From assembly GCF_009650095.1 (NCBI RefSeq), contig NZ_CP045915.1, forward strand, positions 4,340,001 through 4,404,000: a DNA stretch of 64,000 nt, written 5' to 3'. Below, in pieces: positions 13,879 to 64,000 of this stretch. The stretch comes from Gracilibacillus salitolerans. Its GTDB lineage: Bacteria > Bacillota > Bacilli > Bacillales > Amphibacillaceae. Positions within the stretch are counted from its first letter, which is position 1. Each line of letters opens with the position of its first letter. The position numbers and the translations under genes are program-made. Below the pieces are notes generated by a model, which did not search any database, was not told the DNA's origin, and saw only the letters and a program-made list of their open reading frames with translations.

Positions 13879-13896
13879 AACGTTACTAAATGAAAT

Positions 13897-14370: not shown

Positions 14371-14506
14371 ATTGTATCTCTCCCTTAAGATAAAATAAAG
14401 ATAATCGATTGAATTGCCAACACCTTGATGTGGCTGTTGGCAGGATAATTGATGTCAACTGTCATAACCATGGTGCTAGTAAAAAGCAAGGTTGCAGAAT
14501 GAAGTT

Positions 14507-14668: not shown

Positions 14669-14716
14669 CGGAAACACCTCTTTCCTTTTTTTAACTGTTT
14701 ATCTTGATGATTCTCG

Positions 14717-36242: not shown

Positions 36243-36284
36243 AAAAAGCCAGTACTTTTTAAATAAGTACTGACTTTTTTAGAC
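36243..36284. terminator. Bidirectional terminator after the TagO-like gene
   Basis: AAAAAAGCCAGTACTT pairs with AAGTACTGACTTTTTT (about 36243-36281) with one mismatch, having A and T runs on both sides. It overlaps the final codons of the TagO-like gene. Confidence 0.75.
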
Positions 36285-38678: not shown

Positions 38679-38834
38679 ATAATTTCGTCCTCTCTTTTCA
38701 ACTATTGTCATCATTTAACATCTTATCGTATTTTTAATATAACATAGAATCTACTGATTTCATTAAAATGGTGTAACGTTTGTTACAGAAAAACGTCTAA
38801 TATATTAAATTGTAAAATATTTTCTTAAATACAA

Positions 38835-38863: not shown

Positions 38864-38901
38864 GTATGTTAGTGCGGTTTAATCTAGAAATCGGGGGAAA
38901 T

Positions 38902-46262: not shown

Positions 46263-47711
46263 CTATATGATATCAAAACCTTGTCGAACAGGTCTAGTTC
46301 TTGATTGTTCACTTATTGTATGTGGTTCATTATAACCGTCTAATATATCTTTCACTAAATCTATCATTGTTTGTACGTTATCTGAGGACCCAGCCATTAT
46401 TAAAGTCATTTTATCCGGTTGCCTTTTGAGCGATCCGCTTATTCTATATCTATGGGCGATTCTCTGAACAGCACGCGGAAACTTCTTTTGAAACTTTTTA
46501 GGGACAGTAATAAAATATCTTTTTAAAATAATGTTATGTGGTATATCTGGTACCTCAACTTTTTCGAAGATTGTTCTCTTATAACACATGGAATAAACAC
46601 TGTTAAAATCAAAGTACATACGTCTGCTGCTCTTCCTGTCATAATTAATCGTATCAGGGAAAAGATAATCAATTATCTTGGCTGGTATATCCCTTGCTTG
46701 TCCAAATGTAGGATACATTTGAATATCTAATCCTGGTTTCGTATTAATCTCTAATACAATTGCTGTACCCTTATCTTCATCTATTAATAAATCCACTGCG
46801 CCTAAATGCAAGCCTTCTATTGCCTTTACTGCATTTATAGCTATTTGTTTATATTCCACACTTAATTCATCTGTAACATCAATTGATTCTCCGCCTGAGG
46901 ATACGTTAGCTTTCTTTTTTAAAAATACTAGTTCACCTTTTGGTAAAATGGTGTCTAATCTCAATTGTTTTTCTTCAAGTGTATTTTTTAATTCTTCATC
47001 TATCCCAATTTTCTTTTTATTAGAGGGGCCATTATTTTTGATACGTATTTTATTCTTGGCATCTATCAATTCTTTTAGGGTACTCTCTCCATCACCTGTA
47101 ACATTCGCTGGCACTCTTTGCACACTTGCAATTACTTCATCTTCAATAACGTACACTCTATAATCGTATCCTGTAAAACATTTCTCGATAATTATTTTAG
47201 AGTTAGCTGCTATCTCTTTTATTTCATCTAGTGCCTTTATCAATTGTTGATCATTTTGAATATCCGTTGTAATTCCTTTTCCACCATATCCATCATTGGG
47301 TTTGACCACTACAGGATAACCAAGTTGATTTGCATACTTAATCATTGCTTCATTAGAACTATCAGATTGGAAAAATGATCCTTCAGCATGTGGTACACCT
47401 TTCTCTTTCAATGGCTTTTTGGTTAATTCTTTATTCTTACAATTCGTTCTTGCTTCATCTGTCATAATACTCGGGGCGGCTGAATTAAAATCAAAGGATG
47501 TACCTTCTTCATCACTTAAAGTAAACCAAAAGATTCGAGAATCTTCTTCCCGTTCATATGACAGTTTCATTGCTAAATGCAAACCTCTTCTCCATCCTTC
47601 TAATGCAATAGAATAACCATTTAAAATTGCACTAGCTAAACTTGGTAAGGAGTTATCTATATGTTTTATAACTTGTCCTGAGATCTCTCTTCTTTTATCA
47701 AAATCTAACAT
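46263..47711 (-). CDS. CphA-like ATP-grasp ligase with C-terminal acylphosphatase-like domain (paralog D)
   Basis: A 482-residue paralog of the three ligases at 49893-54692. N-terminal part with the shared ALEGWRRGL motif, then an ATP-grasp domain resembling that of cyanophycin synthetase: VVVKPNDGYGGKGI, DYRVYVIEDEV, RVPANVTGDG and VLEINTKPGLDIQMYP. The C-terminal 110 residues look like a divergent acylphosphatase fold. The expected reaction is ATP-dependent amide bond formation between a carboxylate and an amino acid; substrates are unknown. AAGGAG ten bases upstream supports ATG 47711. It is split from its paralogs by the plus-strand permease gene and has its own terminator. Confidence 0.8.
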   Translation of the reverse strand: MLDFDKRREISGQVIKHIDNSLPSLASAILNGYSIALEGWRRGLHLAMKLSYEREEDSRIFWFTLSDEEGTSFDFNSAAPSIMTDEARTNCKNKELTKKPLKEKGVPHAEGSFFQSDSSNEAMIKYANQLGYPVVVKPNDGYGGKGITTDIQNDQQLIKALDEIKEIAANSKIIIEKCFTGYDYRVYVIEDEVIASVQRVPANVTGDGESTLKELIDAKNKIRIKNNGPSNKKKIGIDEELKNTLEEKQLRLDTILPKGELVFLKKKANVSSGGESIDVTDELSVEYKQIAINAVKAIEGLHLGAVDLLIDEDKGTAIVLEINTKPGLDIQMYPTFGQARDIPAKIIDYLFPDTINYDRKSSRRMYFDFNSVYSMCYKRTIFEKVEVPDIPHNIILKRYFITVPKKFQKKFPRAVQRIAHRYRISGSLKRQPDKMTLIMAGSSDNVQTMIDLVKDILDGYNEPHTISEQSRTRPVRQGFDII

Positions 47712-47717
47712 AATCAA

Positions 47718-48373
47718 GTTGCTCCTTTGTTGGAATATATACAGTAAGAGATTGTATATTGATTAATAGTTTAGCAAATCTAATTATCGCTGTATACGTA
47801 AGACTTAGTTTTAATTTTATATTCTCATTTTCGAGGTTTCTTTCCATATTATATTTATGCTAACATAAACTAAAGAAATGCGATATTTTTGGGTATGAGG
47901 TGTAAACAAAATACATTTTTATAAAGATTCCATTCTTTTATATATCCAATTAAATGAAGAAATTGAGCAAGCATTCATAAAGGCATATATAAATTAATAA
48001 AATCCCCAGTAAAAGATAAATAATGGACGAATAATATGTTGTATTCGTATCAAATATTATTATCAAGAAAAAGAAGTCTTTAACCTGGTACTAAGAAAAC
48101 GCAGAGCGCTCGTTCAGCTACGTACAAACTGCGCCCGTGCAACACGGGTGGGTCGAGTTGCCACGCAAAGTGGTGGTTTTAATCGATCATACTTCCGGAA
48201 GGAGATAAAGGAAACTCTTTGGGAGCTGAAAGCGAATCGATGTTGATTTATCGTACGGAAGTAGGGAAGTTTGCTAGTTGCTGGCTTGGAGCTAGATAGA
48301 TAAGCAATTCTATACTTTCTGTCATTTCAACAAAATTATATTCTAAAAATCATTATTGGAGAAGAGGATAACT
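47718..48373. other. Intergenic region holding a GC-richer structured element
   Basis: No gene is seen here. The first 370 bases are AT-rich upstream sequence of the ATP-grasp gene. The 48090-48300 part is visibly richer in G and C than its surroundings and is listed separately. The last 70 bases form the permease leader, ending in GGAGAAGAGG. Confidence 0.5.
48096..48298. other. Structured, GC-richer non-coding element (possible RNA or dispersed repeat)
   Basis: About 200 bases with several paired segments: CGCAG (48100-48104) with CTGCG (48129-48133); CCCGTG (48134-48139) with CACGGG (48143-48148) over a three-base loop; CCAC (48161-48164) with GTGG (48170-48173); and a long arm where TACTTCCG (48190-48197) pairs with CGGAAGTA (48256-48263), nesting GATAAA (48204-48209) with TTTATC (48247-48252). 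No open frame of note. It could be a structured RNA leader of the permease gene or a dispersed intergenic repeat of Bacillaceae; the text has the feel of a repeat I have met in other genomes, but I cannot name it. Confidence 0.55.
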
Positions 48374-49828
48374 ATGGAAAAACGTACTACCTTGAATAGA
48401 ACTTTAAAGCCACATTGGGTTTGGGCCATCGCTCTCGGATCTGCTATTGGTTGGGGAGCATTTGTACAACCTGTCAATTGGATGGCAACCGCAGGACCTT
48501 TAGGGGTAATCTCCGGGTTCTTTATTGGCGCCTTATTAATGCTATTAATTGCTGTGAGTTATGGGTTTCTCATTAAAAGCTTCCCTGTATCTGGTGGTGA
48601 GTTTGCTTATGCTTATATCAGTCTTGGCAGAACACACGCATTTATCTCTGGCTGGTTTTTAACACTTGGATATATCTGTATTGTAGCTTTAAACGCTTCA
48701 GCATTTGCATTAATGTTTAAATTTGTGTTCCCTAAACTGGTCGAAAGAAGCTTACTTTACCAAGTTGCCGGTTGGGATATCTTCTTACCAGAAGTAATTG
48801 TTGCCACCGTAATTTTGGGATTATTTGGATTTTTTAATGTTAGAGGAAGTAGTTTCTCAGGGAGAATTCAATTTATTTTTTGTATTGTAATGGTAACAGC
48901 CATTGTACTTCTAACTTTTATGGTCGGTATACAACCAGATGCAGGTTTTTCTAATATTAACCCTCCATTTCCAGCAGAAACTACTGCATTAGCGGCTATA
49001 ATTTCTATTGTAGCTATTGCACCTTGGGCATATGTTGGGTTTGATAATATACCACAAACTGCTGAAGAATTTGATTTTTCTTCTAATAAAGCATTTAAAC
49101 TAATAGTATTCGCTATATTAGCTGCCGCAATCTTATACAGTCTAATGATAATAGCTACAGCAATGGTTAGACCTTGGGAGTCAGTAGTCGCTGATAATTA
49201 CATTTGGGGTACAGGGCAAGTTATTCAAGACTTATTAGGTACAGCAGGATTAATTGTACTTGTAGTTGCACTTACAATGGGAATATTTACGGGACTGAAT
49301 GGTTTTATTATTTCATCAAGTCGTTTGCTATTTGCGATGTCCAGAGCAAAAATTATTCCTCAAAGTTTTTCTAAACTACATCCAAAATACAAAACACCTT
49401 ATTTGGGAATTATCTTTACCGTAATTATAGCAATGGTGTCACCGTGGTTTGGTCGGGAAGCGTTACTTTGGGTTGTAGATATGTCATCCATCGGGGTAAC
49501 GATTGCCTATTTCTATACATGCTATGCCGCATTTTCGTTATTCCGCATGAACATGGGAACTAACTTTGATGAGAAAAAACATATTATCTCACCTGGTAAA
49601 AAGGTTATTGCCATTCTTGGTATGATTGCTAGTATTACTTTTTTAGTATTACTCTTATTCCCTGGATCACCTGCATTCTTGGGCATAGAATCTAGAATTG
49701 CTTTAGGTGCATGGGTTCTGTTAGGTTTATTATTCTATTTAATCAAGAGAAAAGATTTAAATAAAATCTCAAAAGAAGAGCTGAATTATTTAATCTTAGG
49801 AAATAAAGAAGTAAAGATAAAAAAATAG
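48374..49828 (+). CDS. APC-family amino-acid permease
   Basis: A 484-residue transporter with about twelve membrane helices. The first helix carries the APC signature GSAIGWGAFVQP, and the region VSGGEFAYAY and APWAYVGFDNIPQTAEEF are also typical of amino-acid permeases. GGAGAAGAGG six bases before ATG 48374 rules against the TTG at 48356. It sits between ATP-grasp ligase genes on the opposite strand and may supply the amino acid they use (inference). Its substrate cannot be told from sequence. A bidirectional terminator follows. Confidence 0.88.
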   Translation: MEKRTTLNRTLKPHWVWAIALGSAIGWGAFVQPVNWMATAGPLGVISGFFIGALLMLLIAVSYGFLIKSFPVSGGEFAYAYISLGRTHAFISGWFLTLGYICIVALNASAFALMFKFVFPKLVERSLLYQVAGWDIFLPEVIVATVILGLFGFFNVRGSSFSGRIQFIFCIVMVTAIVLLTFMVGIQPDAGFSNINPPFPAETTALAAIISIVAIAPWAYVGFDNIPQTAEEFDFSSNKAFKLIVFAILAAAILYSLMIIATAMVRPWESVVADNYIWGTGQVIQDLLGTAGLIVLVVALTMGIFTGLNGFIISSSRLLFAMSRAKIIPQSFSKLHPKYKTPYLGIIFTVIIAMVSPWFGREALLWVVDMSSIGVTIAYFYTCYAAFSLFRMNMGTNFDEKKHIISPGKKVIAILGMIASITFLVLLLFPGSPAFLGIESRIALGAWVLLGLLFYLIKRKDLNKISKEELNYLILGNKEVKIKK

Positions 49829-49835
49829 AGATAAC

Positions 49836-49867
49836 AATAAAGCCACCCATTATTGGGTGGCTTTATT
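49836..49867. terminator. Bidirectional terminator
   Basis: AATAAAGCCACCC (49836-49848) pairs perfectly with GGGTGGCTTTATT (49855-49867). It lies between the convergent permease and ATP-grasp genes and also ends the long minus-strand polymer operon. Confidence 0.85.
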
Positions 49868-49892
49868 GATGAAACTTACACACTTTCCGTGA

Positions 49893-51353
49893 TCATTCTT
49901 GATTATTCAGTGCTTTCTTTTCGTTCTTCTCTTTTTCTCTTAACTTTTTACTTTTCTGGATTTTAAATCCTACTTGTAATTTTCCGCTCCAACGATGTTC
50001 CGATATTTCTAGCTGTTCTGAATTTAGTTTGTTTTTTCTTATTAACTCTTCCATGAATTTATTCACTTTAGCACTTTTTCCTACTATAACCAGTAACATA
50101 TCACCGCTTACCAGATGTCTTGCAAAACCATCTATAAAATTAGTTCTTGCTAATAACTTTAGATGGTTTTCAAATTCTGTTTTGACATCACCTTTAAGTA
50201 AATAAACTTCTTTTACTGCTTGCTTTTGAATTGGCTTAATTTTAATTTCTTCCACAAGCCCTTTTGTAATTCCCTCGTTTACGATATCAAAATTAAAATA
50301 ATAATTAGTTGCTTTAGGAGTATCAACTGTCTCCGGAAAGTAGTAATCAATTATTGCTTTAGGTACATCTCTTGCAACGCCCTCTAGCGGGAATAAATGA
50401 TTACTAATTTGCGCTTTTGAGTTTAGTTCGTTTACTACGACTTCGTTTTTATCCTCATCCACGATCAAATCTACTGCACATTGGATTAATCCCGGTACAG
50501 ATTGTGCAGCTCCTATCGCAACTTCTCTTACTTTTTCACTAAGACTATCGGTAATATCAATTGGATCTCCACCGTTAGCAAAGTCACCTTTATTTTTTAA
50601 GAATATACGTTTTCCTTCAGCGGGAATGGTTTCTAAGGTCATATCCTTTTTTTTCAGATAGTCTTTTAATGCGTTATTAATTTTGATTGGTTTAAAATAG
50701 ATAAATGGGCTTTTCTTTCTTTCGACGTTTTTACGCTTAATTAATTCCTCAATAGTATTTTTCCCGTCACCTAAAATATTAGCAGGCATTCTGTGAAAAG
50801 CGCCTAAAATTTGACCGTCTAACACAAAGACTCGATAGTCTTCACCAGTTATATATTTCTCAACTATGACTTCTTTATATCCCAATTGATGTCTCACATT
50901 ATTAATAGCATCTGCCATTTCTTGCTCATTTCTGATATTTGAAATTACCCCTATTCCTCCACCTGCATTAAACGGTTTAATTACAAGCGGGAAACCTATG
51001 GAGCTACTATAATCCAATATATCCTTATCATCAGCTTCGCTATCAAAAAATTCCCCTTCAGGAACTGGTATATTTTTAGCTCTCAAATGTTCTTTTGTAG
51101 CCTCTTTATTTATACATACTCTTATAGCTGATATTGGAATGATGTCTGGCCGTGAATAATTAAAAATATATGTTTTCTCCCCATTACTTAATTCAATGTG
51201 TTCTGGCCGACCTTTCCTGTTAACATACTTTAAAGTTAAGCCTCTTCTCCATCCTTCTAACGCTAAAAGATAGCTACATAACTTATAGCCATAGGCGGAC
51301 TTAGGTATGGAATTTTCCAAGTGATTAAACCATATTCTGTTATTTTCTCCCAT
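49893..51353 (-). CDS. CphA-like ATP-grasp ligase with C-terminal acylphosphatase-like domain (paralog C)
   Basis: A 486-residue ligase of the same family as its neighbours: LALEGWRRGLTL near the start, then LVIKPFNAGGGIGV, KYITGEDYRVFVLDG, RMPANILGDGKNTIEELI, and VVNELNSKAQISNHLFPLEG. The metal-site motif E-N is kept (NELNSK). The C-terminal part (VYLLKGDVKTEFENHL to the end) corresponds to the acylphosphatase-like tail and ends in a Lys/Glu-rich stretch. GGAGG precedes the ATG. It is the last gene of the minus-strand polymer operon and lies 19 bases after the next paralog. Confidence 0.82.
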   Translation of the reverse strand: MGENNRIWFNHLENSIPKSAYGYKLCSYLLALEGWRRGLTLKYVNRKGRPEHIELSNGEKTYIFNYSRPDIIPISAIRVCINKEATKEHLRAKNIPVPEGEFFDSEADDKDILDYSSSIGFPLVIKPFNAGGGIGVISNIRNEQEMADAINNVRHQLGYKEVIVEKYITGEDYRVFVLDGQILGAFHRMPANILGDGKNTIEELIKRKNVERKKSPFIYFKPIKINNALKDYLKKKDMTLETIPAEGKRIFLKNKGDFANGGDPIDITDSLSEKVREVAIGAAQSVPGLIQCAVDLIVDEDKNEVVVNELNSKAQISNHLFPLEGVARDVPKAIIDYYFPETVDTPKATNYYFNFDIVNEGITKGLVEEIKIKPIQKQAVKEVYLLKGDVKTEFENHLKLLARTNFIDGFARHLVSGDMLLVIVGKSAKVNKFMEELIRKNKLNSEQLEISEHRWSGKLQVGFKIQKSKKLREKEKNEKKALNNQE

Positions 51354-51372
51354 ATTTATCCTCCATCATGGT

Positions 51373-53019
51373 TTACGATTCTCTAGGTTTTAATAAAACT
51401 TTAATCAACCTTAGCGGTCCTGTAAATCTCCAAGAACGACTCAATTTTATTTTGATATTCTCTTTTTCAAGTCGACGCTTATCTTTTCGCATTTTGTGTA
51501 ATTCTTTTTCGTACCTTTTTATAACTGTATTAATATTTTTTATACTGCTTGATTCCAGCTCTTCACTAATTTCAAATCCGATACGAACTGGTTGATCAAA
51601 GGTTTCTTCTATTATTTTTTTGATTTCTGCAAATTCTTGAACATCCGTAATGATTTGTTTAAATTGATTGACAACACGTTTATCGGTACCTGCAACAATT
51701 ACTTCAATTTCACCGTCCATCAATGTTGTAATATAACCACTAAGGTGTTGCTCTAAAGCTTTATTTTTTATATATCGATGGTATCTAATTTGATTAACTT
51801 TTCCTGTTACAACATAACGTTTTTGATAGATCTCGCCTATCAATGCCGGCGCAACTTCCACTTCTTCTCCAGATCTGTTCTGCAAAGGACTTAATACCGT
51901 ATTAAAATCAAAATAAACTTTTTCACGATCCGTTTTTATATCTTTTGTTTTCGGAAAATAATAATCAACAATTGCTGAAGGAATATCTCTTGCTCTCCCT
52001 CTCATCGGAAATAATATACCGCCTATTTGCGCAGTTGGATTTAATTCAATCACTACAGCAGCTTGATTGATCGGCTTATTTAAGTCAACAATGATATCAA
52101 CACCGCCATGATATAATCCAGGTATTTCTTTCACCGCATTAATCGCTATTTCTTTAAATTCTTCTGGAATTTCATCCGTAACATCAACCGGATCCCCTCC
52201 GGCTGATACGTTTGTTTTTTCCTTTAATAGAATTTTTTCGTCTTTTTTTGGAATGCTGTCAAGTTGATAACCTGTATTTCCGATAAATTCCAGCGTTTCC
52301 TGATCAATATCAATAAGACAACTGAATAACCGCGCGTTTTTTCTCCGTTGTTCATTCTTCAACTGAATCAATTCTTCAATGGTATGTTCACCATCACCAA
52401 TGATATTAGCCGGTAAACGATTATATGCTGCCACCACTCTATCTTCGACAACGTAAACACGATATTCTTCACCCGGCATGTATTGCTCCACAATCAAATC
52501 TTCATATCCAAGTGTATTTCTCACATAATTAACTGCCTTTTTTAACTCTTCTGGAGACTTAATATTTGTTATTACACCATTTCCGAGACTTCCGTTAGTT
52601 GGCTTTAAGACAAGAGGATAACCTACTTGTTCAGCAAATGCTAATATTTCAGCTTCTCCTGCTTCAGCATGAAATTCATCACCAGCTGGAACAGGTACTC
52701 CCGCTTTTTTTAACCATTGTTTCGTTTCATTTTTATCAGATCCGATATCTACTGCTTCATTACTAACTTTGTCCCCTCTAGTTCTAAAGAAATAATGAGT
52801 TTCTGTCTCAGAACTTAAAGAAAACAAGCGACCAGGTGGGTTGACACCAAAAGTGATCATCTCGTCAAATTTACCTGAATCTATCGTATACCATTTTAAT
52901 TTTAGTCCTCTTCTCCAACCTTCAAGCGCTACTGCATAAGCACATAACTTCGTTTTACGAGCTCCCCTTACAATTTCATTTGTAAGATGCGGTAATGAAA
53001 TAACTTGATTACTATTCAT
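51373..53019 (-). CDS. CphA-like ATP-grasp ligase with acylphosphatase-like and coiled-coil tail (paralog B)
   Basis: A 548-residue ligase. ALEGWRRGLKLKW and RTRGDKVSNEAVDIG precede the ATP-grasp domain (LVLKPTNGSLGNGV, VEQYMPGEEYRVYVVED, RLPANIIGDGEHTIEEL, VVIELNPTAQIGGILFPM). The following acylphosphatase-like domain reads VTGKVNQIRYHRYIKNKA and LSGYITTLMDGEIEV; the catalytic Arg and Asn of true acylphosphatases are His and Thr here. A coiled coil then ends in SWRFTGPLRLIK, a closing motif common in polysaccharide-synthesis proteins. GGAGG eight bases before ATG 53019 fixes the start. Closest paralog is the gene at 53049. Confidence 0.85.
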   Translation of the reverse strand: MNSNQVISLPHLTNEIVRGARKTKLCAYAVALEGWRRGLKLKWYTIDSGKFDEMITFGVNPPGRLFSLSSETETHYFFRTRGDKVSNEAVDIGSDKNETKQWLKKAGVPVPAGDEFHAEAGEAEILAFAEQVGYPLVLKPTNGSLGNGVITNIKSPEELKKAVNYVRNTLGYEDLIVEQYMPGEEYRVYVVEDRVVAAYNRLPANIIGDGEHTIEELIQLKNEQRRKNARLFSCLIDIDQETLEFIGNTGYQLDSIPKKDEKILLKEKTNVSAGGDPVDVTDEIPEEFKEIAINAVKEIPGLYHGGVDIIVDLNKPINQAAVVIELNPTAQIGGILFPMRGRARDIPSAIVDYYFPKTKDIKTDREKVYFDFNTVLSPLQNRSGEEVEVAPALIGEIYQKRYVVTGKVNQIRYHRYIKNKALEQHLSGYITTLMDGEIEVIVAGTDKRVVNQFKQIITDVQEFAEIKKIIEETFDQPVRIGFEISEELESSSIKNINTVIKRYEKELHKMRKDKRRLEKENIKIKLSRSWRFTGPLRLIKVLLKPRES

Positions 53020-53048
53020 TCTGTTTACCTCCAAAAAGGATTACGTAC

Positions 53049-54692: not shown

Positions 54693-54721
54693 AAAGATGC
54701 CTCCTACCTTTTCTCTTCCTG

Positions 54722-56089: not shown

Positions 56090-58712
56090 CTACTTCCGCT
56101 ATAGTTGGTAATAAATGAGGCTCCAAACGATCAGCATGTAAAGAATAACCAAATTGTTCTTCAACGAATTGTAATGCTGTTGTCACTTGCTTTTCGTATA
56201 ATTTCGGATCTTGCATTAATTGTCTCGCTTTCTCTTGGACTTGATTCGGTTCTGCATATATTGCTGCATCTTTAAACAGGTTCTGATAGGTTGGGGAAAT
56301 GATTACTGGCACACCTACTGCCATTGCTTCAAAGATTACTCGTCCAAATGCTTCAACCCAACCAGGATGCGTATAGTAAACAAAAACATCTATTTCTTTC
56401 AAAAAGTCTTTCGGTTCGATTTCACCGAATTCATGTACTTCCCAGTTTTGTGGGAGTTCACCAAGTAGCTTTTCTGGTACTTGAGCTCCTCCTAACACAT
56501 GAATTTCAAATTCTTCCGATTCCGGGTAAATGGTTAGCAATTCTTCCTTTTCATTTGGCCATTTCACATATTGTGCTCGAGAGTGACGACCAATTTTAAT
56601 TGGTCCATCTGTAGCTGGTCGTTTTACTCGTTTCCATTCTGCTACATTAATGATATTCACCCAATCTTCTGGCGCTAGGGTAATCGCATCTAAATCTTTC
56701 TGATGATGTTCTTCCAGTGCTTCTCGTACAGAAGGGCCTATCGGATACCAGATGGCTTTCTTACCAAAATATTGTTTCAGGCGTTTGGCGCATGTTCTAA
56801 TCTTATATAAAGGCGTTTCTTTTTTTGTATAATCTCTTTTCGGTGGTTGATTGACAATCACCTTAATGCTTTTTGCTTCAACATCTGGCACGTATCTCTG
56901 CCATTCCTGTAAAACAGGGGGATGACGGACAATGAGCACATTACAGCTAACCTTTTCGCCGTAGCCAATCATCTGAACTTGCTTACCATCGATCTGTTCA
57001 CGAACTTTTGGATTAATCATTTTGGTCGAATGTAAATCATGCCTGTACAGTTGGATTAATCCGGTTTTTAAGCCTAGTTCCTTTTGTGCTTTGATTTCTT
57101 CAATGTTGGACATGTTGGTACCGCCAAGCAACCTGAATTCCGAGACAATAATCACATCAAAATGGCGTCTAGCGTGAAGTGATTTTTCTCCCCGAATTGG
57201 CCACATTGGTTCTGGTACTGCAAAAGGTCTTTCTGTCATTGGAAAAGGGTAATACACATCATCATGTGTCTGATGATACTCTGTATAAGCATCTAAGTAT
57301 TCTTTTCTCACACCCATAAAGTATCCGTGGTAACCAAAGACACTATTAGCAGTTAGGGAGCCGCTTGATTGACGTTGAAAGGCACATGGCCCTGTTTGTA
57401 AATCAACTATTGCGTCTTTACCAAAGACTTTGATTAATCGTTTTTTAAACTCACCGTCTGCTCCAAATCGTACACTATCCCAATAGCCAATCTTTTCAAG
57501 GACTACTTCTCTTCTGAACATGAGTGAAGACATATTCGCAAATAGATATTCACCTGGCTTGCCGCGCCTATGAAAATGTAAATTTTCTGTCAACCTTGCT
57601 TGTTGCGAAGTATTGGCAATCACATTAGGATTTTCCAACAGATGTTGGACTTGAATCGTGATCTTCTCAGGATGTGACCAATCATCCGCATCATTAATGG
57701 TGACAAATTCACCTGTTGCTAGTTGTAATGCTTTGTTCCTTGCTATATATGCACCAGCATTCTTACTGTTTTTTAACAGTTTGATCCGTGGGTCCTTATG
57801 GGCATATTGTTCCACTACTTCAACCGTATTATCCGTGCTACAATCATCGACAACCAATATTTCAAGGTTTGTCCATGTTTGATTCGTGATAGAATCTAAC
57901 GCTGTTTGTACGGTTTCTGCTGCATTGTAAACTGGGATGATTACTGTTATAACAGGTCCTTGTTGTTGTTGTGCTAGTTGATCAGTTACCTCTATTGCAT
58001 CATATAACGTCCGACCTTGCGTCAGCGTAATGGGTGTTAGCTGATGAAGTGCAAATGCTTTATTGATCCACTCCACTTTCTTGTCACTAGTTGTTTCTGC
58101 TGACGCCATCGCTAAGCATAGATCTGGATGTTGATGTTGTTTGATATGTTCTAATAGAATCTGCTTCGCTGCATCATGTTCTTCCAAATGCCATAACAAT
58201 TCTGCTTCTAAAATAGGTACTTTTCTTGTCCAATCCTGTGAAAGAGTATACTGTTTTAACACGTTCAAATAGGAAAGAGCTTGCTCTGCAGCAGATACCG
58301 TATCTTGATTGGCATACCAAACAGCAAGTTCGAGAGCAGCATTTTTCCTATCATAGGGATTGTTTGTTTTTTCTACTATTTGCTTTAATTCAGGGATGAC
58401 TGTGTCGTAAAAGCCATACTCATATAATGCGCGTTTTAATTTTTTTATTTTCTGTTTCGATTTTTTTTGCATTTGCTTTTTGTCAAAGATTTGCTTGACC
58501 GTTTTCTTTCTAGTTGCAATTGCTTTGGCATTTTTCGCCCAAGTAAAACCGGACCTGATTACTCTATTTTTATCTATACGATTAAATGTTGCCAATGCTT
58601 TATCGTATTCTAGCTTATTTACGATATATTGTTGCTTTTCTTGCTCTAACTTGGCTTCTATTTCCCGTAGCTTTTGCTCCACATCCATTTGATTATGATC
58701 GTTTCTGGTCAT
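56073..58712 (-). CDS. Bifunctional GT2 + GT4 glycosyltransferase (paralog 2)
   Basis: An 879-residue two-domain glycosyltransferase. After some 200 residues of helical sequence comes a GT2 domain (VITVIIPVYNAAETVQTAL, DDCSTDN, then the acidic NDADDWSHPEK motif); from about residue 540 a GT-B/GT4 domain starts at RRHFDVIIVSEFRLLGGTN and ends with EAFGRVIFEAMAVGVPVI, the nucleotide-sugar-binding signature. It is homologous over its length to the gene at 58693, evidence of duplication. The frame opens at 58754, inside the upstream gene; I prefer ATG 58712, ten bases after GGAG, which overlaps that gene by 20 bases. It probably builds a repeating disaccharide of the wall polymer (inference). Confidence 0.88.
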   Translation of the reverse strand: MTRNDHNQMDVEQKLREIEAKLEQEKQQYIVNKLEYDKALATFNRIDKNRVIRSGFTWAKNAKAIATRKKTVKQIFDKKQMQKKSKQKIKKLKRALYEYGFYDTVIPELKQIVEKTNNPYDRKNAALELAVWYANQDTVSAAEQALSYLNVLKQYTLSQDWTRKVPILEAELLWHLEEHDAAKQILLEHIKQHQHPDLCLAMASAETTSDKKVEWINKAFALHQLTPITLTQGRTLYDAIEVTDQLAQQQQGPVITVIIPVYNAAETVQTALDSITNQTWTNLEILVVDDCSTDNTVEVVEQYAHKDPRIKLLKNSKNAGAYIARNKALQLATGEFVTINDADDWSHPEKITIQVQHLLENPNVIANTSQQARLTENLHFHRRGKPGEYLFANMSSLMFRREVVLEKIGYWDSVRFGADGEFKKRLIKVFGKDAIVDLQTGPCAFQRQSSGSLTANSVFGYHGYFMGVRKEYLDAYTEYHQTHDDVYYPFPMTERPFAVPEPMWPIRGEKSLHARRHFDVIIVSEFRLLGGTNMSNIEEIKAQKELGLKTGLIQLYRHDLHSTKMINPKVREQIDGKQVQMIGYGEKVSCNVLIVRHPPVLQEWQRYVPDVEAKSIKVIVNQPPKRDYTKKETPLYKIRTCAKRLKQYFGKKAIWYPIGPSVREALEEHHQKDLDAITLAPEDWVNIINVAEWKRVKRPATDGPIKIGRHSRAQYVKWPNEKEELLTIYPESEEFEIHVLGGAQVPEKLLGELPQNWEVHEFGEIEPKDFLKEIDVFVYYTHPGWVEAFGRVIFEAMAVGVPVIISPTYQNLFKDAAIYAEPNQVQEKARQLMQDPKLYEKQVTTALQFVEEQFGYSLHADRLEPHLLPTIAEVGDHYH

Positions 58713-61218
58713 GAAGATCTGGCTCCAATCTTGTAAAATGCATCTGATAACCAAATTGCTCTTCGACGAATTGTTGCGCTTTTGCTACTTGACTATTATA
58801 TAATTCATCATCTTGCATTACTTGTATCACTTTCTCTTGAACTTGATCTGGCTCAGCGTAAATCGCTGCATTTTTAAACAAGTTCTTGTAACTTGGTGGA
58901 ATGATTACCGGTACACCGGCTGCCATTGCTTCAAAGATTACCCGTCCAAATGCTTCTACCCAGCCTGGATGTGTATAATAAACGAAAACATCCAAATCTT
59001 TGAGGAACTCTTGTGGTTCAACTTCCCCAAATTCATATACTTTCCAATTGGCAGGTATTTGTCCAAGTACTTTCTTCGGTACTTGTGCTCCTCCTAACAC
59101 ATGGATTTCGTATTCTTTCGCTTCAGGATATATCGTTAACAGTTCCTCTTTATCATGTGGCCATTTCACATACTGTGCGCGTGAATGGCGGCCAATTTTA
59201 ATCGGTCCTTGTTTAGCTGGTCGTTCTTTTCTCTTCCATTCCGCAACATTAATAATATTTAACCAGTCATGAGAAGCAAGATTAATAGACGCTAAATCTT
59301 CTTGATGATACGTTTCTAATGCTTCTCTAACAGACGGTCCGATCGGATACCATGTTCCTTCATCACCAAAATACTCTTTTAACCTATTTACTGATGTCGG
59401 AATATCATATAATGCTTGTTCATTTATTGTGTAATCTCTCTTCGGTGGTTGATTGACAATCACCTTGATCGTTTTAGCCTCTATATCTGGTAAGTGTTTT
59501 TGCCAGTCCTGTAATACTGGTGGATGGCGAACGATTAAAACATCACAGCTAACCTTTTCACCATAGACTAACATTTGCACTTGTTTACCATCGATTTGTT
59601 CACGCACTTTAGGATTTAGTGTGGTAACAGAATTCAAATCATATCTGTACATTTGCACAAGACCTGTTGTTAAGCCTAATTCTTTTTGTGCTTTGATTTC
59701 CTCAACATTAGACGCATTAGTACCACCAAGCAATCTGAACTCTGATGCTATAATAACATCGAAATGTCTTCTTTTATTTTTCTCGCGTTCTGGCAACATT
59801 GGCTCCGGAACCGGAAAAGGCTGTTGTTCCAGAGGAAATGGATAATACAAATCTGCCGCATATTCATGGTGATATAATTGCGCTTCTAAGTAATCTTTTC
59901 TTGCTCCCATAAAATATCCTGGAAAACCGAAGGCAGAGCTTGCAGTTAATGATGTTTCTGTTTGTCTTTGGAAAGATAATGGCGCTGTTTTTAGCTCGAC
60001 AACACTTTTCTCACCGAATACATTCTTTACTCGACGCACGAATTCAGAGTCTCCGCCAAATCGTACGCTATCCCAGTAGCCGATCGCATGCATAACCGGC
60101 TCTCTCCGGAACATAAAAGATGACATATTAGAAAAAACATACTGTCCAAATTTTCCTCTGCGATAGAATGTCATATCTGTCGTTGCTCTTACTTGTTGCG
60201 AGAAATTAGCGATGGTAGACGTATGTTTGATTAAATGATTCACTTGTGTGGCAATCTTCTCTGGATGTGACCAGTCGTCTGCATCATTGACGGTTACAAA
60301 CTCACCAGTAGTATGTTCTAAAGCAGTGTTTCGCGATACATATGCTCCGGAATTTCGGCTGTTTTGCATTAATTTAATACGGTTATCCTCTTTCAAATAG
60401 TTTTCAACGATATCTAGAGTGTGATCCGTACTGCAGTCATCTACAACAATGATTTCAAGGTTTTTCCATGATTGTGCAGACAGGGAACGCAATGTCGTTA
60501 AAATCGTATCTTCTGCATTATACGTTGGTACAATAATGGTTACTTTAGACTCATTAGCCTGTTCTGACTGGCTATTAACAGCTGTCGCGATAGAATCATA
60601 TATTGTAGTCGCTCCGCTTTCATCAAATGTTATAGGTGTATTTTGATAACTCGAATAGATGGAATTGATCCATTTTAACTTCTCTTCGTGGTCATCCGCT
60701 ACGTTCGCTAATGCTAGATAAAGATCTTCATGTTGTTCCTGCTTAAGAGCTGTTAGCAATATGTTTTTTGCCTGCTCTTTTTTATCCAATGTTATTAATG
60801 CTTCAGCAGACATGATCGCATACTTGCGGTTTAAAACACTATCCTTCTCACCTTTGGAAAGTTCACGAATAATCATCAGGCTTTGTTTAGCATGTTCTTG
60901 ATCATATTTGTTGGCATGCCAAAGACTTAGCTCACGACCGGATAATTTCTTTAAAAAACGATCTTCGGCATGTTGATAAAGGTTAGATAAATCTTCTAAT
61001 CCTTTTTCGGTAAAGCCCATACTGTATAATTTATTTCTAATTCGATCCACTTTTTGTAATTGCGATCTTTTTTTGCCTGGTTTAATGATCTTTTTTAACA
61101 GTGCTTTTTGTTTATCTGTTAGCAGACTGCTTAAAAACTCTTTTTGTTTGGTATTCATTTTTTTATATAGGATCCAATCTGCTGTCGCAAAAACCTTATT
61201 CTTTACTTTTCTGATCAT
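58693..61218 (-). CDS. Bifunctional GT2 + GT4 glycosyltransferase (paralog 1)
   Basis: An 841-residue protein with basic helical N-terminus (1-220), GT2 domain from VTIIVPTYNAEDTI (226) with DDCSTDH (260-266) and NDADDWSHP (311-319), a middle segment, and a C-terminal GT4 domain that starts RRHFDVIIASEFRLLGGTN and carries EAFGRVIFEAMAAGVPVI. No signal peptide, so it acts on the cytoplasmic face. The paralog downstream shares the same domain order and many identical stretches. Fusions of two transferase types usually make alternating sugar units. The ribosome binding site is weak, and the gene lies 22 bases after the exporter ATPase gene. Confidence 0.88.
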   Translation of the reverse strand: MIRKVKNKVFATADWILYKKMNTKQKEFLSSLLTDKQKALLKKIIKPGKKRSQLQKVDRIRNKLYSMGFTEKGLEDLSNLYQHAEDRFLKKLSGRELSLWHANKYDQEHAKQSLMIIRELSKGEKDSVLNRKYAIMSAEALITLDKKEQAKNILLTALKQEQHEDLYLALANVADDHEEKLKWINSIYSSYQNTPITFDESGATTIYDSIATAVNSQSEQANESKVTIIVPTYNAEDTILTTLRSLSAQSWKNLEIIVVDDCSTDHTLDIVENYLKEDNRIKLMQNSRNSGAYVSRNTALEHTTGEFVTVNDADDWSHPEKIATQVNHLIKHTSTIANFSQQVRATTDMTFYRRGKFGQYVFSNMSSFMFRREPVMHAIGYWDSVRFGGDSEFVRRVKNVFGEKSVVELKTAPLSFQRQTETSLTASSAFGFPGYFMGARKDYLEAQLYHHEYAADLYYPFPLEQQPFPVPEPMLPEREKNKRRHFDVIIASEFRLLGGTNASNVEEIKAQKELGLTTGLVQMYRYDLNSVTTLNPKVREQIDGKQVQMLVYGEKVSCDVLIVRHPPVLQDWQKHLPDIEAKTIKVIVNQPPKRDYTINEQALYDIPTSVNRLKEYFGDEGTWYPIGPSVREALETYHQEDLASINLASHDWLNIINVAEWKRKERPAKQGPIKIGRHSRAQYVKWPHDKEELLTIYPEAKEYEIHVLGGAQVPKKVLGQIPANWKVYEFGEVEPQEFLKDLDVFVYYTHPGWVEAFGRVIFEAMAAGVPVIIPPSYKNLFKNAAIYAEPDQVQEKVIQVMQDDELYNSQVAKAQQFVEEQFGYQMHFTRLEPDLHDQKRS

Positions 61219-61240
61219 TTATAACACACCCATACTTAGG

Positions 61241-62815
61241 TTATTGTTTCACAACTTGTTTCTTTTTTTTCTTAGCTTTAGCCTTAGGTTTACTTCGGTT
61301 TGTTGCTTCTCGGTATGCGGCTACGACTTCTTCTGAAGCACCATCTTGTCTTACTTGTCCTTTTTCAATCCAAATTGCTCTCGTACAAACCGTCTCGACA
61401 AATTTCATACTGTGTGACACGATGATGACTGCCTTCGCTTGTTCCATCATTTCTTGAATTTTTTCGCTTGCTTTCTGTTTAAAAGCGACATCACCTGTTG
61501 ATAATGCTTCATCAATAATGAAGATGTCCGGCTTTAAAATGGCGGCGATACTAAAACCTAACCTTGCTCTCATTCCACTGGAGTACTGTTTAATTGGCTT
61601 ATAGATTTTATTTCCTAACTCCGAAAATTCAATGATGTCATCTACATGTTTGTCAACTACAGCTTTTGATAAACCTAATAGCATCCCATTTAAGTAAATA
61701 TTATCTATACCAGGTAACTGTTGATTAAATCCGGTACCATAGCTTAATAATGCCGTAGTTTCACCATTAACGACCACTTCCCCTTCGTCAGGCTTCAATA
61801 TCTTGGTTAACACTTTACATAACGTACTCTTACCTGCACCGTTATGTCCGATAATACCGACTACTTCCCCTTCAGAGATAGTAAAATTCAATTTATTCAA
61901 AGCAATATGTTCACTTTTGCGCTTATTATTAAACTTAATAGTTAAATCTTCTACAGAGACTACATTTCTGTTTTTAACCTCTAATTCTGTTTTCGTTAGT
62001 TCCAGACGTTTCCTAGGCTTTCTTTTCACTTTTGGAATCGTTGCTTCATATTGCTTCAATACTTCCTCAGGCTCACCAATTGCCCGGATTTCACCTTGCT
62101 CTAGCCAAATTAACCTATCACAATTTCTTTTCGCATAGCGGTGACTGTGGGTTACGATGATCACCATTTTCGCTTGTCCTAACAGTTCACGAATTTTCGT
62201 AGCTGCTTTTTGTCCGAATGCTCGATCACCTGTATTTAACGCTTCATCTAAAATTAAAATTTCTGGTTCCAAGTGTGATGCTACACTAAATCCGAGTCTT
62301 GCTTTCATCCCACTCGAATAGGTTTTCATTGGTCTATCAATGAACTCTCCAAGCTCTGAAAACTCATGGATCTCATCAAAAAATTCGTCTATTTTTGCTT
62401 TACGGATACCTAGCATCATACCGTTTAAGTAAACATTTTCCCGTCCCGTTAGCTCCTTGTTAAATCCCATTCCTAATGAGAAAAGGGCAGATACTTTTCC
62501 CTCGACTTGTAAATTTCCTTCATCTGGATGTAGTATGCCAGTTAAAGCTTTACATAACGTTGTTTTTCCGGAACCATTTGACCCAACAATTCCAAGTACC
62601 TCACCTTTATAGCCTGTGAAATTAATATGGCGAAGAGGCCATGTTTTCTTTGGAGCCTTTTTCTTCTCCTTTTTCTCCTTTTTCGAGAGATACTTAATGG
62701 CTATTGATTTATAATCATCTCTTGTATTTGAACTAAAGGCTACACCTAAATCATCTGCTTGAATGACGATTTCTTTTTGATTTTGTATTGCCTTATCTTC
62801 ATTTGTTGTAACCAT
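61241..62815 (-). CDS. Polysaccharide-export ABC ATPase with two fused nucleotide-binding domains (Wzt/TagH type)
   Basis: A 524-residue ATPase made of two complete Wzt/TagH-type domains: Walker A GSNGSGKT (about 78-85) and GHNGAGKS (about 323-330), signature motifs YSSGMKARLGFS and YSSGMRARLGFS, Walker B ILILDEALNTGD and IFIIDEALSTGD, each with its own switch His. Family members usually carry one such domain and dimerise; TagH adds an unrelated C-terminal part. The linker and tail are Lys-rich. GAGGG nine bases before ATG 62815 selects this start over TTG 62824. With the permease gene just upstream it forms an exporter for a lipid-linked polymer. Confidence 0.93.
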   Translation of the reverse strand: MVTTNEDKAIQNQKEIVIQADDLGVAFSSNTRDDYKSIAIKYLSKKEKKEKKKAPKKTWPLRHINFTGYKGEVLGIVGSNGSGKTTLCKALTGILHPDEGNLQVEGKVSALFSLGMGFNKELTGRENVYLNGMMLGIRKAKIDEFFDEIHEFSELGEFIDRPMKTYSSGMKARLGFSVASHLEPEILILDEALNTGDRAFGQKAATKIRELLGQAKMVIIVTHSHRYAKRNCDRLIWLEQGEIRAIGEPEEVLKQYEATIPKVKRKPRKRLELTKTELEVKNRNVVSVEDLTIKFNNKRKSEHIALNKLNFTISEGEVVGIIGHNGAGKSTLCKVLTKILKPDEGEVVVNGETTALLSYGTGFNQQLPGIDNIYLNGMLLGLSKAVVDKHVDDIIEFSELGNKIYKPIKQYSSGMRARLGFSIAAILKPDIFIIDEALSTGDVAFKQKASEKIQEMMEQAKAVIIVSHSMKFVETVCTRAIWIEKGQVRQDGASEEVVAAYREATNRSKPKAKAKKKKKQVVKQ

Positions 62816-62832
62816 GGTAAACAACCCTCTTT

Positions 62833-63624
62833 TTATAATACTTTAATGATCTTGTGCTCATTTTTGTTATAGTGATATAACATATATAGCACGGCGATAA
62901 TGGATACTATCGTTAACACGAACAAGCCTAAAAATTGTGGTGTCTGCTGTTCCATTAGTATGGCTCGATAAGCATTTAATAAAATGGCTACAGGATTCAA
63001 ATCCAAAATTAAATGAAACTGTTCTGGTAAATTACTTTCCTTTAGTCTACTGCCTTCCCAAATAATCGGTGAAGAATAAAAGAATAAGCGCAGCACATGT
63101 GATAACACATTATCAATGTCTCGTACAAATACTGTGATGTATGATACAAATAAACTTAATGCTCCTAAGAAAATAAGCGTAATTAGGATAATGACAGGTA
63201 AAAAAATAATTTGCCATCCTGGAACATATCCAAACGCAGCCAAGAATATAGCTATAACAATTAAACCAAAACAAAAATTAAACAATTGTGTAATGGATAA
63301 AGATAGTGGGAATATCGCTTTAGGTAAATAAACTTGATTGATAATAGATGTATACTTCGTAATAGATTTCGCGGAAGAATTAACTGTAGTATTAATCCAA
63401 CGCCACACCACTAAACCAATCACTAAATAAACCGGATATCCTGGTCCGCCTCGTCCTAAAAGAACAACAACAAGGAAATAATAGACGATGACGTTTAATA
63501 ATGGATCTAATAACCACCAAAAGTATCCTAAGTAACTATTTCGATTTTCTGCTTTTAAACCTGATTTCACAAGATATATAAGTAAATCTTTTCTTTTTAA
63601 TATTTCCGATATATAATTCAACAT
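62833..63624 (-). CDS. Polysaccharide-export ABC permease (Wzm/TagG type)
   Basis: A 263-residue ABC-2 permease with six membrane helices. The start (LIYLVKSGLKAENRNSYLGYFWWLLDPLLN) and the central YPVYLVIGLVVWRWINTTVN follow the Wzm/TagG pattern, as does SSPIIWEGSRL and LNPVAILLNAYRAILM near the end. It exports undecaprenyl-linked glycopolymer with the tandem ATPase encoded nine bases downstream of its stop. The ribosome binding site is modest (GGTGG). Confidence 0.92.
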   Translation of the reverse strand: MLNYISEILKRKDLLIYLVKSGLKAENRNSYLGYFWWLLDPLLNVIVYYFLVVVLLGRGGPGYPVYLVIGLVVWRWINTTVNSSAKSITKYTSIINQVYLPKAIFPLSLSITQLFNFCFGLIVIAIFLAAFGYVPGWQIIFLPVIILITLIFLGALSLFVSYITVFVRDIDNVLSHVLRLFFYSSPIIWEGSRLKESNLPEQFHLILDLNPVAILLNAYRAILMEQQTPQFLGLFVLTIVSIIAVLYMLYHYNKNEHKIIKVL

Positions 63625-63647
63625 TTGCTCTTAGACACCACCAATTC

Positions 63648-64000
63648 TTACCTCATATAATTTAAATATGCCTTCACCTTTAAAAATACATAATGTGCAA
63701 AATACCATAAGCTTTTTAAAAGGCCCAGCTGCTCGACTTGCCTGTAAACGATCCAATTTTGTTTCGCCATTCTGATTTTGTTACTTGAAATCGAATTACT
63801 TCTCACACGATACGCTGCCAGTACTTCATGTAAACCATAAGCTGTATAACCACGTCTTGTTAAATTAAGCCACAATGCGTAATCCTGTCGTGAACGAATG
63901 TTAGCCATGCGAATCTCAGGTATCTTCTCTCGATCCAGCATAACGGTTAAGCATCCTATCAGACAGCTTTTCAACAGTTGTTTATATGTTGTATTTTCTG
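63648..64000 (-). CDS. Glycosyltransferase family 2, C-terminal part (runs off the window)
   Basis: The frame is open to the window edge, so only the last 117 or so codons are visible and the true start is outside. The visible part has LKSCLIGCLTVMLDREK, RSRQDYALWLNLTRRGYTAYGL and LAAYRVRSNSISSNK, the acceptor-side end of GT2 enzymes that add hexoses or acetamido sugars to polysaccharide repeat units. It precedes the exporter permease gene by 24 bases and so belongs to the same operon. Confidence 0.85.
   Translation of the reverse strand, partial: ENTTYKQLLKSCLIGCLTVMLDREKIPEIRMANIRSRQDYALWLNLTRRGYTAYGLHEVLAAYRVRSNSISSNKIRMAKQNWIVYRQVEQLGLLKSLWYFAHYVFLKVKAYLNYMR

Follow-up and report, generated by a model that had tools for sequence, protein, structure and literature searches.

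The window (the whole 64,000-nucleotide stretch of DNA from the salt-loving bacterium Gracilibacillus salitolerans analysed here) is entered at its edge by a minus-strand run of genes encoding, in order, two GT4 glycosyltransferases (outside the window), a GT2 glycosyltransferase, a TagG-like permease, a TagH-like double ATPase, two GT2-GT4 fusions, TupA and three ATP-grasp ligases, with a fourth ligase gene beyond a convergent permease gene (Table 1). The gene list of the preliminary description (GT2, exporter, two GT2-GT4 fusions, TupA-like protein and ligases) was borne out, positions included. That description did not record the acylphosphatase-like domain of the ligases, or the CapA, racemase and Mur-ligase partners present in relatives.

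Table 1. Features of the locus and of the surrounding window; positions are those of the window unless prefixed by L009.
Feature	Position	Strand	Evidence
GT2 glycosyltransferase	63648..64000, crosses window edge; complete at L009:3648-4439	-	PF00535 157 bits, full gene
Two GT4 genes preceding GT2	L009:4441-5571 and L009:5748-6857 (outside window)		
TagG-like ABC-2 permease (Wzm type)	62833..63624	-	PF01061 35.5 bits; NF050109 69.8 bits (cut-off 380)
TagH-like exporter ATPase, two ABC domains in one chain	61241..62824	-	PF00005, two stretches; NF010066 402 bits
GT2-GT4 fusion glycosyltransferase 1	58693..61218	-	PF00535 124 bits; PF00534
GT2-GT4 fusion glycosyltransferase 2	56073..58754	-	PF00535 131 bits; PF00534
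TupA (TupA-like ATP-grasp amidoligase)	54722..56089	-	PF14305 226 bits (cut-off 25)
lig5, first ligase after TupA	53049..54692	-	CphA-like ATP-grasp; acylphosphatase-like domain; SWRxTxPxR-like tail
lig4, second ligase	51373..53034	-	CphA-like ATP-grasp; acylphosphatase-like domain; SWRxTxPxR-like tail
lig3, third ligase	49893..51353	-	CphA-like ATP-grasp; degenerate acylphosphatase-like domain
Terminator-like stem after third ligase, 15 pairs	49835..49868	-	
Amino-acid permease, convergent	48356..49828	+	PF13520 155 bits
lig1, fourth ligase	46263..47717	-	CphA-like ATP-grasp; acylphosphatase match not significant
LCP (LytR-CpsA-Psr) glycopolymer transferase	38866..39951	+	PF03816 158 bits
UDP-glucose 6-dehydrogenase (Ugd)	37512..38714	-	NF011631 654 bits (below equivalog cut-off of 757); TIGR03026 subfamily model above cut-off
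TagO/WecA-like initiating phosphoglycosyltransferase	36279..37352	-	WecA model 140 bits, below cut-off

In TupA, a long N-terminal region precedes the ATP-grasp amidoligase part (residues 204-428), and relatives of this protein carry the names teichuronopeptide biosynthesis or TupA-like. Five terminator-like sites were found between positions 46000 and 50000 (shuffles average 2.2), and the stem following lig3 is the longest of them. A promoter scan of the same interval was uninformative, as it returned 12 sites, against 17.4 in shuffles. Relatives of the cluster were sampled as 63 named loci from 28 genera, among the matches listed (80 loci kept). The amino-acid permease, which the preliminary description had placed, with the fourth ligase, beside the run, is indeed present there in convergent orientation, but its inclusion in the system was overstated: a permease lies near the cluster in only one of these 63 loci (L021). 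It was therefore rejected as a member, and is probably a bystander.

The CphA-like ligases and their acylphosphatase-like domain

The four ligases scored 193-233 bits on the ATP-grasp region of cyanophycin synthetase, far below the CphA equivalog cut-off of 850, and the match was confined to that region; they are therefore described here as CphA-like, and full CphA identity was rejected. They make up the entire family in this genome, four additional low-scoring matches (1e-4 to 1e-6) being assigned to other ATP-grasp proteins because the match was short. Among proteins of solved structure, cyanophycin synthetases and GshAB come closest, the ATP-grasp region aligning along roughly 270 residues (102-118 bits against CphA chains of known structure); these enzymes act on other amino acids. 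The ligases differ from CphA in their length (484-553 rather than about 880-930 amino acids) and in the acylphosphatase-like domain that follows the ATP-grasp region. Residues K139, E177, D307, E323 and N325 are conserved in 212-215 of the 216 aligned ligases and the first lysine, K100, in 184, and all six are invariant in the four ligases of the window. They correspond to the ATP-grasp lysines, the glutamate and the metal-binding D/E/N residues. An SWRxTxPxR-like tail was found in 106/216 ligases, 3/53 TupA proteins, 0/87 fused glycosyltransferases and 124/2409 ORFs overall (ligases included). It was considered as a possible signature of the complete complex and retained only as a ligase feature, as it is frequent in ligases only.

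Most of the window ligases bear the acylphosphatase-like domain at their C-terminus. PF00708 scored 57 bits in lig5 and 44 bits in lig4, 21.8 bits in lig3, slightly under the cut-off of 22.5, and a non-significant 13.5 bits in lig1. The positions of the catalytic residues of acylphosphatase, an Arg and an Asn, were placed by alignment to solved acylphosphatases. Both are present in none of the four window ligases, and no intact-pair ligase was found in the window's genome, so a working acylphosphatase was rejected for these proteins. The pair is complete in 39 of the 216 aligned ligases (16 are gapped at one position), and 37 of the 63 loci have a ligase with an intact pair, exactly one in 35 cases. 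The domain may serve in acceptor binding or control where the pair has been lost, with acyl-phosphate hydrolysis a possible role where it has been kept. The database name "acylphosphatase" is misleading for such ligases, and is corrected by the analysis of the cluster. A literature search combining acylphosphatase, ATP-grasp and cell wall found no report, and PMC12145430, one of two papers matching acylphosphatase and ATP-grasp without the cell wall, is in the passage concerned unrelated to this gene block.

Conservation of the cluster and its partners in relatives

Co-occurrence was assessed in 199 genomes of the order. Ligase matches were obtained in 29 genomes, 17 of which were removed because their best frame was long (750-894 amino acids) and lower-scoring, and was taken as CphA on length and score, leaving 12 ligase genomes, together with 11 for TupA and 16 for the fused glycosyltransferases. 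All three components are present in 11/11 TupA genomes, and TupA and the fused glycosyltransferases are both found in 11/12 ligase genomes (association by Fisher tests, uncorrected for kinship). The exception, G087, has a ligase but neither TupA nor fused glycosyltransferases, and five genomes have the fused glycosyltransferases without TupA or ligases. The preliminary description had proposed a single system, to be refuted if the ligases occurred as often apart from the glycosyltransferases and exporter as together with them; across the 199 genomes, ligases, TupA and fused glycosyltransferases coincide, and the idea passes this test. The TagG-TagH-GT fusion-TupA-ligase order is kept on one strand in 45/45 core-complete loci among the 63, from 22 genera, which excludes a chance arrangement. 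In all 53 loci with TupA, the matched gene that follows it is a ligase, at a distance of no more than 110 bp in 52 of them, and a double Walker A motif was found in the TagH-like chain of 46/46 relatives examined.

CapA-type genes (PF09587) lie in 26 of the 63 loci, 20 of them standalone and the other six joined to an additional TupA-like domain; Pfam matches were confirmed on one example of each kind. The background in 26 chosen genomes was 41 over-cut-off rows, about 1.6 per genome, giving a chance expectation of roughly 1% per locus. Four of the 12 TupA genomes among these 26 have CapA at the TupA cluster, and one more, G118, carries CapA next to a ligase at another site. The cluster of the window's genome contains no CapA, racemase or Mur ligase, the only CapA of this genome lying at 625 kb among unrelated genes. 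Glutamate or amino-acid racemases were found in the loci of relatives: in L092 a glutamate racemase above the NCBI cut-off is 41 bp from a ligase, with TuaD and GalU (both above cut-off) in the flank, and the racemase of L043 scores above the cut-off for cysteate racemase as well. At the place of CapA, L058 has a ligase resembling MurF (286.5 bits, against a cut-off of 288.6), with a homologue in L024. These extra genes point to acidic amino acids. An adjoining M14 carboxypeptidase was not supported as an enzyme specific to teichuronopeptide, as peptidoglycan-binding M14 proteins also adjoin glycosyltransferase cores without ligases (L076, L077).

This evidence also bears on whether the ligases might make a free cytoplasmic peptide osmolyte for high salt, akin to N-acetylglutaminylglutamine amide (NAGGN), with accidental wall neighbours. 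Against the model for NAGGN synthetase all four score 119-147 bits, far short of its cut-off of 569, and the named genera carrying the cluster are mostly salt- or alkali-loving. Such a role is nevertheless quite unlikely, given that across 22 genera the ligases are almost always found together with TupA and the exporter, and that six loci have a CapA-TupA fusion beside ligases. A spore-coat function is more improbable still. YheC and YheD are linked to spores, and genes for ATP-grasp proteins of this type were found in 22 of the 62 loci examined (PF14398 confirmed on three), but up to six ligases are present in Salinicoccus and Lacicoccus, which are not known to form spores, and the exporter and glycosyltransferase core are wall-polymer genes.

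The ligases fall into clades tied to operon position. The lig5 clade contains 53 members, including that of the window, 51 at position 1 and two at position 3, and all 38 members of the lig4 clade, again including that of the window, are at position 2; the lig1 clade adjoins CapA in relatives. The number of ligases per locus ranges from one to six, some loci ending at contig ends. Both features would suit a pathway, overlapping with the reading preferred below, in which each ligase adds a different amino acid, so that ligase number would set the sequence of a fixed short heteropeptide, or in which single amides are placed on different sugars; the YheC/D-type genes, and sugar-transfer ATP-grasps in three loci, supply more ligase types. 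We consider this a possible product but lean against it, since CapA, the glutamate racemase and the L-polyglutamate reported for teichuronopeptide (PMC3815933, in the passage concerned) favour repeated glutamate.

Probable backbone synthesis, export and attachment genes

The TagH-like ATPase passes the NCBI TagH cut-off (402 versus 320 bits) and is adjacent to the PF01061 permease. Among named proteins, TuaG comes nearest to each of the fused glycosyltransferases (105 bits for fusion 1 and 107 bits for fusion 2, both below the cut-off of 400). The genome has one second TagO/WecA-like match, which is weak (71 bits, 31%) and probably corresponds to MraY. Ugd is likely to supply UDP-glucuronate and LCP to effect attachment to the wall. 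The preliminary description had suggested that Ugd, TagO and LCP complete the pathway. All three are near the cluster here, but their distribution in relatives is uneven. LCP neighbours the cluster in several relatives: all three genes lie beside it in a genome whose name we infer to be G. lacisalsi, TagO and LCP in G118 and in another genome, presumably G. orientalis, LCP and a TuaD-type Ugd in G181, and LCP with a weak Ugd match in G172, whereas none of the three was matched within 40 kb in G145. Completion of the pathway by these genes is therefore plausible but not uniform.

An ordinary polyol-phosphate teichoic acid, with the ATP-grasp enzymes modifying minor sites only, would account for an exporter ATPase identified as TagH by the NCBI cut-off and for TagO and LCP, which are common to teichoic acid pathways; PF04464 (TagB/TagF) is above cut-off in 3/11 TupA genomes if weak matches are counted. 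We judge it unlikely, as the window's genome has no PF04464 match and strong matches (E<1e-60) were obtained in 1/11 TupA genomes against 4/9 other genomes tested (0/5 in genomes with the fused glycosyltransferases only).

The predicted pathway and known systems

Teichuronopeptide, a wall polymer composed of glucuronic acid and gamma-L-glutamate, is well known from an alkaliphile. It is probable, in our view, that the locus makes a secondary wall polymer of this type, through a TagO-to-LCP pathway with decoration by TupA and the ligases. The genes themselves, the ATP-grasp residues, the gene order, the co-occurrence and the acidic-amino-acid and UDP-GlcA genes of relatives are observed; the identity of the polymer, the amino acid and the order of steps are proposed on that basis. 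TagO would initiate a lipid-linked chain, and the GT2, GT4 and GT2-GT4 enzymes would build a backbone containing uronic acid from the Ugd supply. TupA would then amidate the uronic-acid carboxylate in the cytoplasm, and the CphA-like ligases would append further amino acids through acyl-phosphate chemistry, probably acidic ones, with glutamate as the first candidate. The TagG/double-TagH transporter would move the finished polymer out, and the LCP enzyme would link it to peptidoglycan.

The preliminary description called the system new, which is too strong. In the passages concerned, tupA and teichuronopeptide are already published (PMC8153356, PMC5938343), Oceanobacillus iheyensis being reported to have tupA in common with B. 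halodurans C-125 (PMC8153356), and distinct ATP-grasp ligases linked in operons have been observed before, with successive ligations and teichuronopeptides named among their products (PMC4431377, citing earlier work), which weakens any claim of full novelty. The titles and abstract openings found for teichuronopeptide and related terms, in largely open-access literature, do not describe this gene block. With the teichuronopeptide of C-125 the locus shares the PF14305 family and, as predicted, an acidic wall polymer of alkali-adapted Bacilli. That literature, in the passages concerned, ties the polymer to tupA alone, whereas here there are about a dozen genes, with one to six ligases and an exporter, and the clusters of relatives add CapA. 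O. iheyensis has a lig5-like protein (P0096, 51-53%); B. halodurans C-125 was absent among the matches listed (80 loci; best 120 of 967, 333 and 1034 proteins). The comparative-genomic prediction in PMC4431377 has the linked ligases in common with our locus, but its passage is without such a locus, an acylphosphatase fusion, an exporter or a CapA partner.

Other systems share individual parts. The C-terminal domain of Campylobacter jejuni Cj1438 is a TupA-like ATP-grasp, fused to a GT2 domain, which is reported to amidate glucuronic acid at its C6 carboxylate (PMC11800379), but there the amide partner is serinol or ethanolamine, and CphA-like ligases and a TagGH-type exporter do not appear in the part of its description concerned. 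PgsBCA/CapBCA resembles the relatives' loci in its CapA-type protein, with acidic amino-acid genes nearby. No CapB or CapC was seen in the cluster, and ligation is proposed to be by ATP-grasp rather than Mur-type enzymes, with a MurF-like ligase added in two loci. TuaA-H/TagGH is alike in the TuaG relationship, the TagH match and the TuaD of one relative, and differs from our locus in the GT2-GT4 fusions, the double-ATPase chain and the ATP-grasp decoration module found here.

According to the passage concerned of a 2013 review, B. halodurans makes L-polyglutamate without a pgs/cap operon, implying "an unidentified system", for example an ATP-grasp synthetase (PMC3815933). The ligases described here are strong candidates for the missing enzymes of the peptide part of teichuronopeptide. 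We tentatively propose that the acylphosphatase-fused enzymes may be its L-glutamate ligases, with TupA setting the first residue, the ligases extending the chain on the glycan without PgsB or PgsC, and the intact-pair ligase, where present, editing or ending the chain by destroying the acyl-phosphate. The cluster supplies concrete, testable genes for this polyglutamate gap, and their order is the same in 22 genera or more. It also suggests that the wall locus is modular: genes for glycan synthesis and export form a conserved core, to which an amino-acid ligation module is joined in some genomes and not in others.

Organization of the block and conservation of its gene order

The Gracilibacillus salitolerans genome consists of a single contig of 5.09 Mb, of which the window covers bases 4,340,001-4,404,000. 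The genes of the block, all on the minus strand and listed here as they are transcribed (from right to left), are two GT4 genes, a GT2 gene, a TagG-like permease, a TagH-like ATPase that carries a pair of ABC domains, two GT2-GT4 glycosyltransferase (GT) fusions, a TupA-like ATP-grasp amidoligase (TupA) and the CphA-like ATP-grasp ligases lig5, lig4 and lig3; both GT4 genes and most of the GT2 gene lie outside the window edge (stretch L009). Neighboring genes overlap or are separated by no more than 30 bp, the one exception being the GT4 pair, whose members are 176 bp apart. A terminator-like stem of 15 pairs directly follows lig3, and is followed by a convergent amino-acid permease and a fourth ligase, lig1. 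Farther past lig1 are genes for two peptidoglycan-binding repeat proteins, an LCP protein, Ugd and TagO. Both repeat proteins are very long; one has a terminal M14 carboxypeptidase and the end of the second reads like a glucosaminidase. Similar repeat proteins flank the core in relatives both with and without ligases. The closest protein relatives of lig5 among the matches listed are from Gracilibacillus (75-84% identity).

Coordinates of features in the window and in the loci of relatives (L-numbers)
Feature	Stretch	Coordinates	Strand
GT2-GT4 fusion	Window	58693..61218	-
GT2-GT4 fusion	Window	56073..58754	-
TupA	Window	54722..56089	-
lig5	Window	53049..54692	-
lig4	Window	51373..53034	-
lig3	Window	49893..51353	-
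lig1	Window	46263..47717	-
Two long peptidoglycan-binding-repeat proteins	Window	40059-42854, 42951-46055	
Alginate lyase (PF05426)	L076	6947-8644	
Ligase-adjoining divergent TagGH-like exporter	L090	17193-19614	
CapA-GDSL fusion and sugar-transfer-type ATP-grasp (PF14397)	L084 (G. orientalis, name inferred)	11452-14211, 14280-15719	
Member of 560-700 aa protein family	L055	14974-16665	

Gene order was compared in 63 loci from 28 genera, obtained from the best 80 matches in one scan of named genomes (L074 duplicates L041); as these loci were picked by ligase similarity, all counts are conditional on the presence of a ligase. TupA was present in 53 of the 63 loci. Five of the ten loci without it are less than 13 kb long (including L074), and in two others, L057 and L073, TupA lies elsewhere on the contig (for L057, at L054; for L073, on a contig matched by its equal length). 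The permease, ATPase, GT fusion, TupA and a ligase occurred together in 45 loci, and their order and single strand were identical in all 45 (22 genera). Two Walker A motifs were found in the double-ATPase chain in 46/46 cases. The ligases also have preferred places: 51 of the 53 members of the lig5 clade occupy the first position after TupA, and all 38 members of the lig4 clade, counting that of the window, the second.

Amphibacillus sp. MSJ-3 carries two ligase islands on one contig (L057 and L054), the second of which contains an LCP gene, two or three ligases and two consecutive CapA-TupA fusions. Some ligases (L053, L056 and L090) adjoin another TagGH-like exporter, a divergent one that scores 186-199 bits against the TagH of the window and is accompanied by TPR proteins in L053 and L056; these ligases possibly belong to a second polymer system.

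Co-occurrence across genomes and the ligase-free core

The preliminary description proposed a single system for an amino-acid-decorated wall polymer and named co-occurrence of its genes as the check. Co-occurrence was assessed in an even set of 199 genomes of the order, independently of the choice of loci by ligase similarity. The ligase search model matched 29 genomes; 17 of these were set aside because their best match, at 1e-51 to 1e-67, was a long frame of 750-894 aa judged from its length and score to be CphA. This left 12 genomes with ligases of the window family. TupA was found in 11 genomes and fused GTs in 16, and all 11 TupA genomes contained ligases and GTs, in agreement with the single-system proposal. 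The exceptions were one genome with a ligase only (G087) and five with GTs only. Fisher P values for co-occurrence, with kinship ignored, ranged from 1e-13 to 1e-17 (1e-12 to 1e-16 without the genome of the window). Of 397 genomes searched in the order, 20 had TupA, and a different query detected it in 2 of 299 genomes of the class, both from the genus of the window. Within families the pattern is patchy (1/18 in one family; 3/5 among the listed genomes of the window's genus), consistent with the module being gained or lost as a whole.

Four of the five GT-only genomes, which lack TupA and ligases, retain TagG, the double TagH and the fused GTs; in the fifth (L079), only a fused GT lies within the stretch read. 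Two have methyltransferase-GT fusions (L077 and L078), and in L076 the ligase-free GT/exporter core is adjoined by an alginate-lyase family protein, hinting at a uronic-acid polymer. These copies point to a wall-glycan core able to carry different decorations.

No match to the TagB/TagF family was obtained in the window genome, which, besides its TagO-like gene, has one weak second match of that kind (71 bits). A strong TagB/TagF match (E<1e-60) was obtained for 1/11 TupA genomes, 0/5 GT-only genomes and 4/9 others tested; the corresponding values for every match over the cut-off were 3/11, 1/5 and 5/9. In the window genome, the main anionic polymer of the wall may therefore be the product of this locus.

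Additional genes in the loci of relatives

In 20 loci (including the duplicate L074 and the split L027), CapA-type genes (PF09587) belong to the ligase block or border it, and six more loci have CapA fused to a second TupA-like domain (Pfam run on one lone CapA and one fusion). The CapA background is sparse: 26 chosen genomes together gave 41 rows above the cut-off, and the window genome has a single CapA, away from the cluster. In this 26-genome set, CapA is at the TupA cluster in only 4 of 12 TupA genomes; one more, G118, has CapA beside a ligase elsewhere. CapA was found in 15 of the 17 loci with a member of the lig1 clade (within 109 bp in 14) and in 5 of the 46 loci without one (one of the five being L074). 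In the two lig1-clade loci without CapA, L024 and L058, a MurF-like ligase adjoins the ligase, and each locus also has a racemase, at distances of 81 bp and 2.2 kb.

Asp/Glu-family racemases (Pfam run on three) were found in 6 of 62 loci examined and in L092, and in six of these seven loci the racemase is no more than 213 bp from a same-strand ligase. The L092 racemase exceeded the NCBI cut-off for glutamate racemase, and that of L043 the cut-offs for both general amino-acid racemase and cysteate racemase. TuaD and GalU, above cut-off in L092, are a UDP-glucuronate supply. YheC/D-type ATP-grasp genes were present in 22/62 loci.

Another CapA/ATP-grasp pair, adjoining an LCP gene, is found in L084. 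A family of proteins of 560-700 aa is encoded near a ligase in L055, L059, L070, L072 and L054; the one member scanned, from L055, gave weak glycoside-hydrolase/lyase matches (GH127-like, pectate lyase), and the family is perhaps a polymer hydrolase.

The ligases and their acylphosphatase-like domain

Lig4, lig3 and lig1 are 32-43% identical to lig5. In all four window ligases, the match to cyanophycin synthetase and GshAB is confined to the ATP-grasp region and does not extend over the whole of those enzymes. The C-terminal part matched acylphosphatase (Pfam) above the cut-off in two ligases and just below it in one, with no significant match in the other. At the sites of the acylphosphatase catalytic residues, which we take to be Arg and Asn, placed in lig5 by alignment to solved acylphosphatases, lig5 has His and Lys, and the Arg and Asn pair is absent from all four window ligases.

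We also aligned 216 ligases (212 distinct relatives' ligases and the four of the window). Both Arg and Asn were kept in 39, and 16 had a gap at one of the two sites. In the lig5 clade, 42 of 53 members have His in place of Arg, as do 36 of 38 in the lig4 clade. Five ATP-grasp residues were kept in 212-215 ligases and the first lysine in 184. Among the matches listed (P0002-P0282), the source names are mostly acylphosphatase, with a few D-alanine-D-alanine ligases or cyanophycin synthetases; despite this usual name, 177 of the 216 lack the catalytic pair. Given that the pair is mostly lost and the ATP-grasp residues are kept, most family members seem to be ligases whose acylphosphatase-like domain is non-catalytic. 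At least one ligase with an intact pair was found in 37 of the 63 loci, and exactly one in 35 of these 37 (some loci being cut by contig ends); about three in five loci thus also hold one ligase whose acylphosphatase-like domain may be catalytic.

Under the proposed mechanism, the ligated residue would be glutamate and the acceptor a uronic amide, with the acylphosphatase-like domain serving to edit or bind. In the Campylobacter capsule, a TupA-like domain makes glucuronic acid amides at C6 (PMC11800379). According to a review, B. halodurans makes L-polyglutamate without the pgs and cap operons, and ATP-grasp synthetases have been suggested for this polymer (PMC3815933). Successive ligations by linked ATP-grasp ligases, teichuronopeptides included, have already been stated in general terms in a comparative genomics study (PMC4431377). 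The cluster provides concrete candidate genes for such ATP-grasp ligation.
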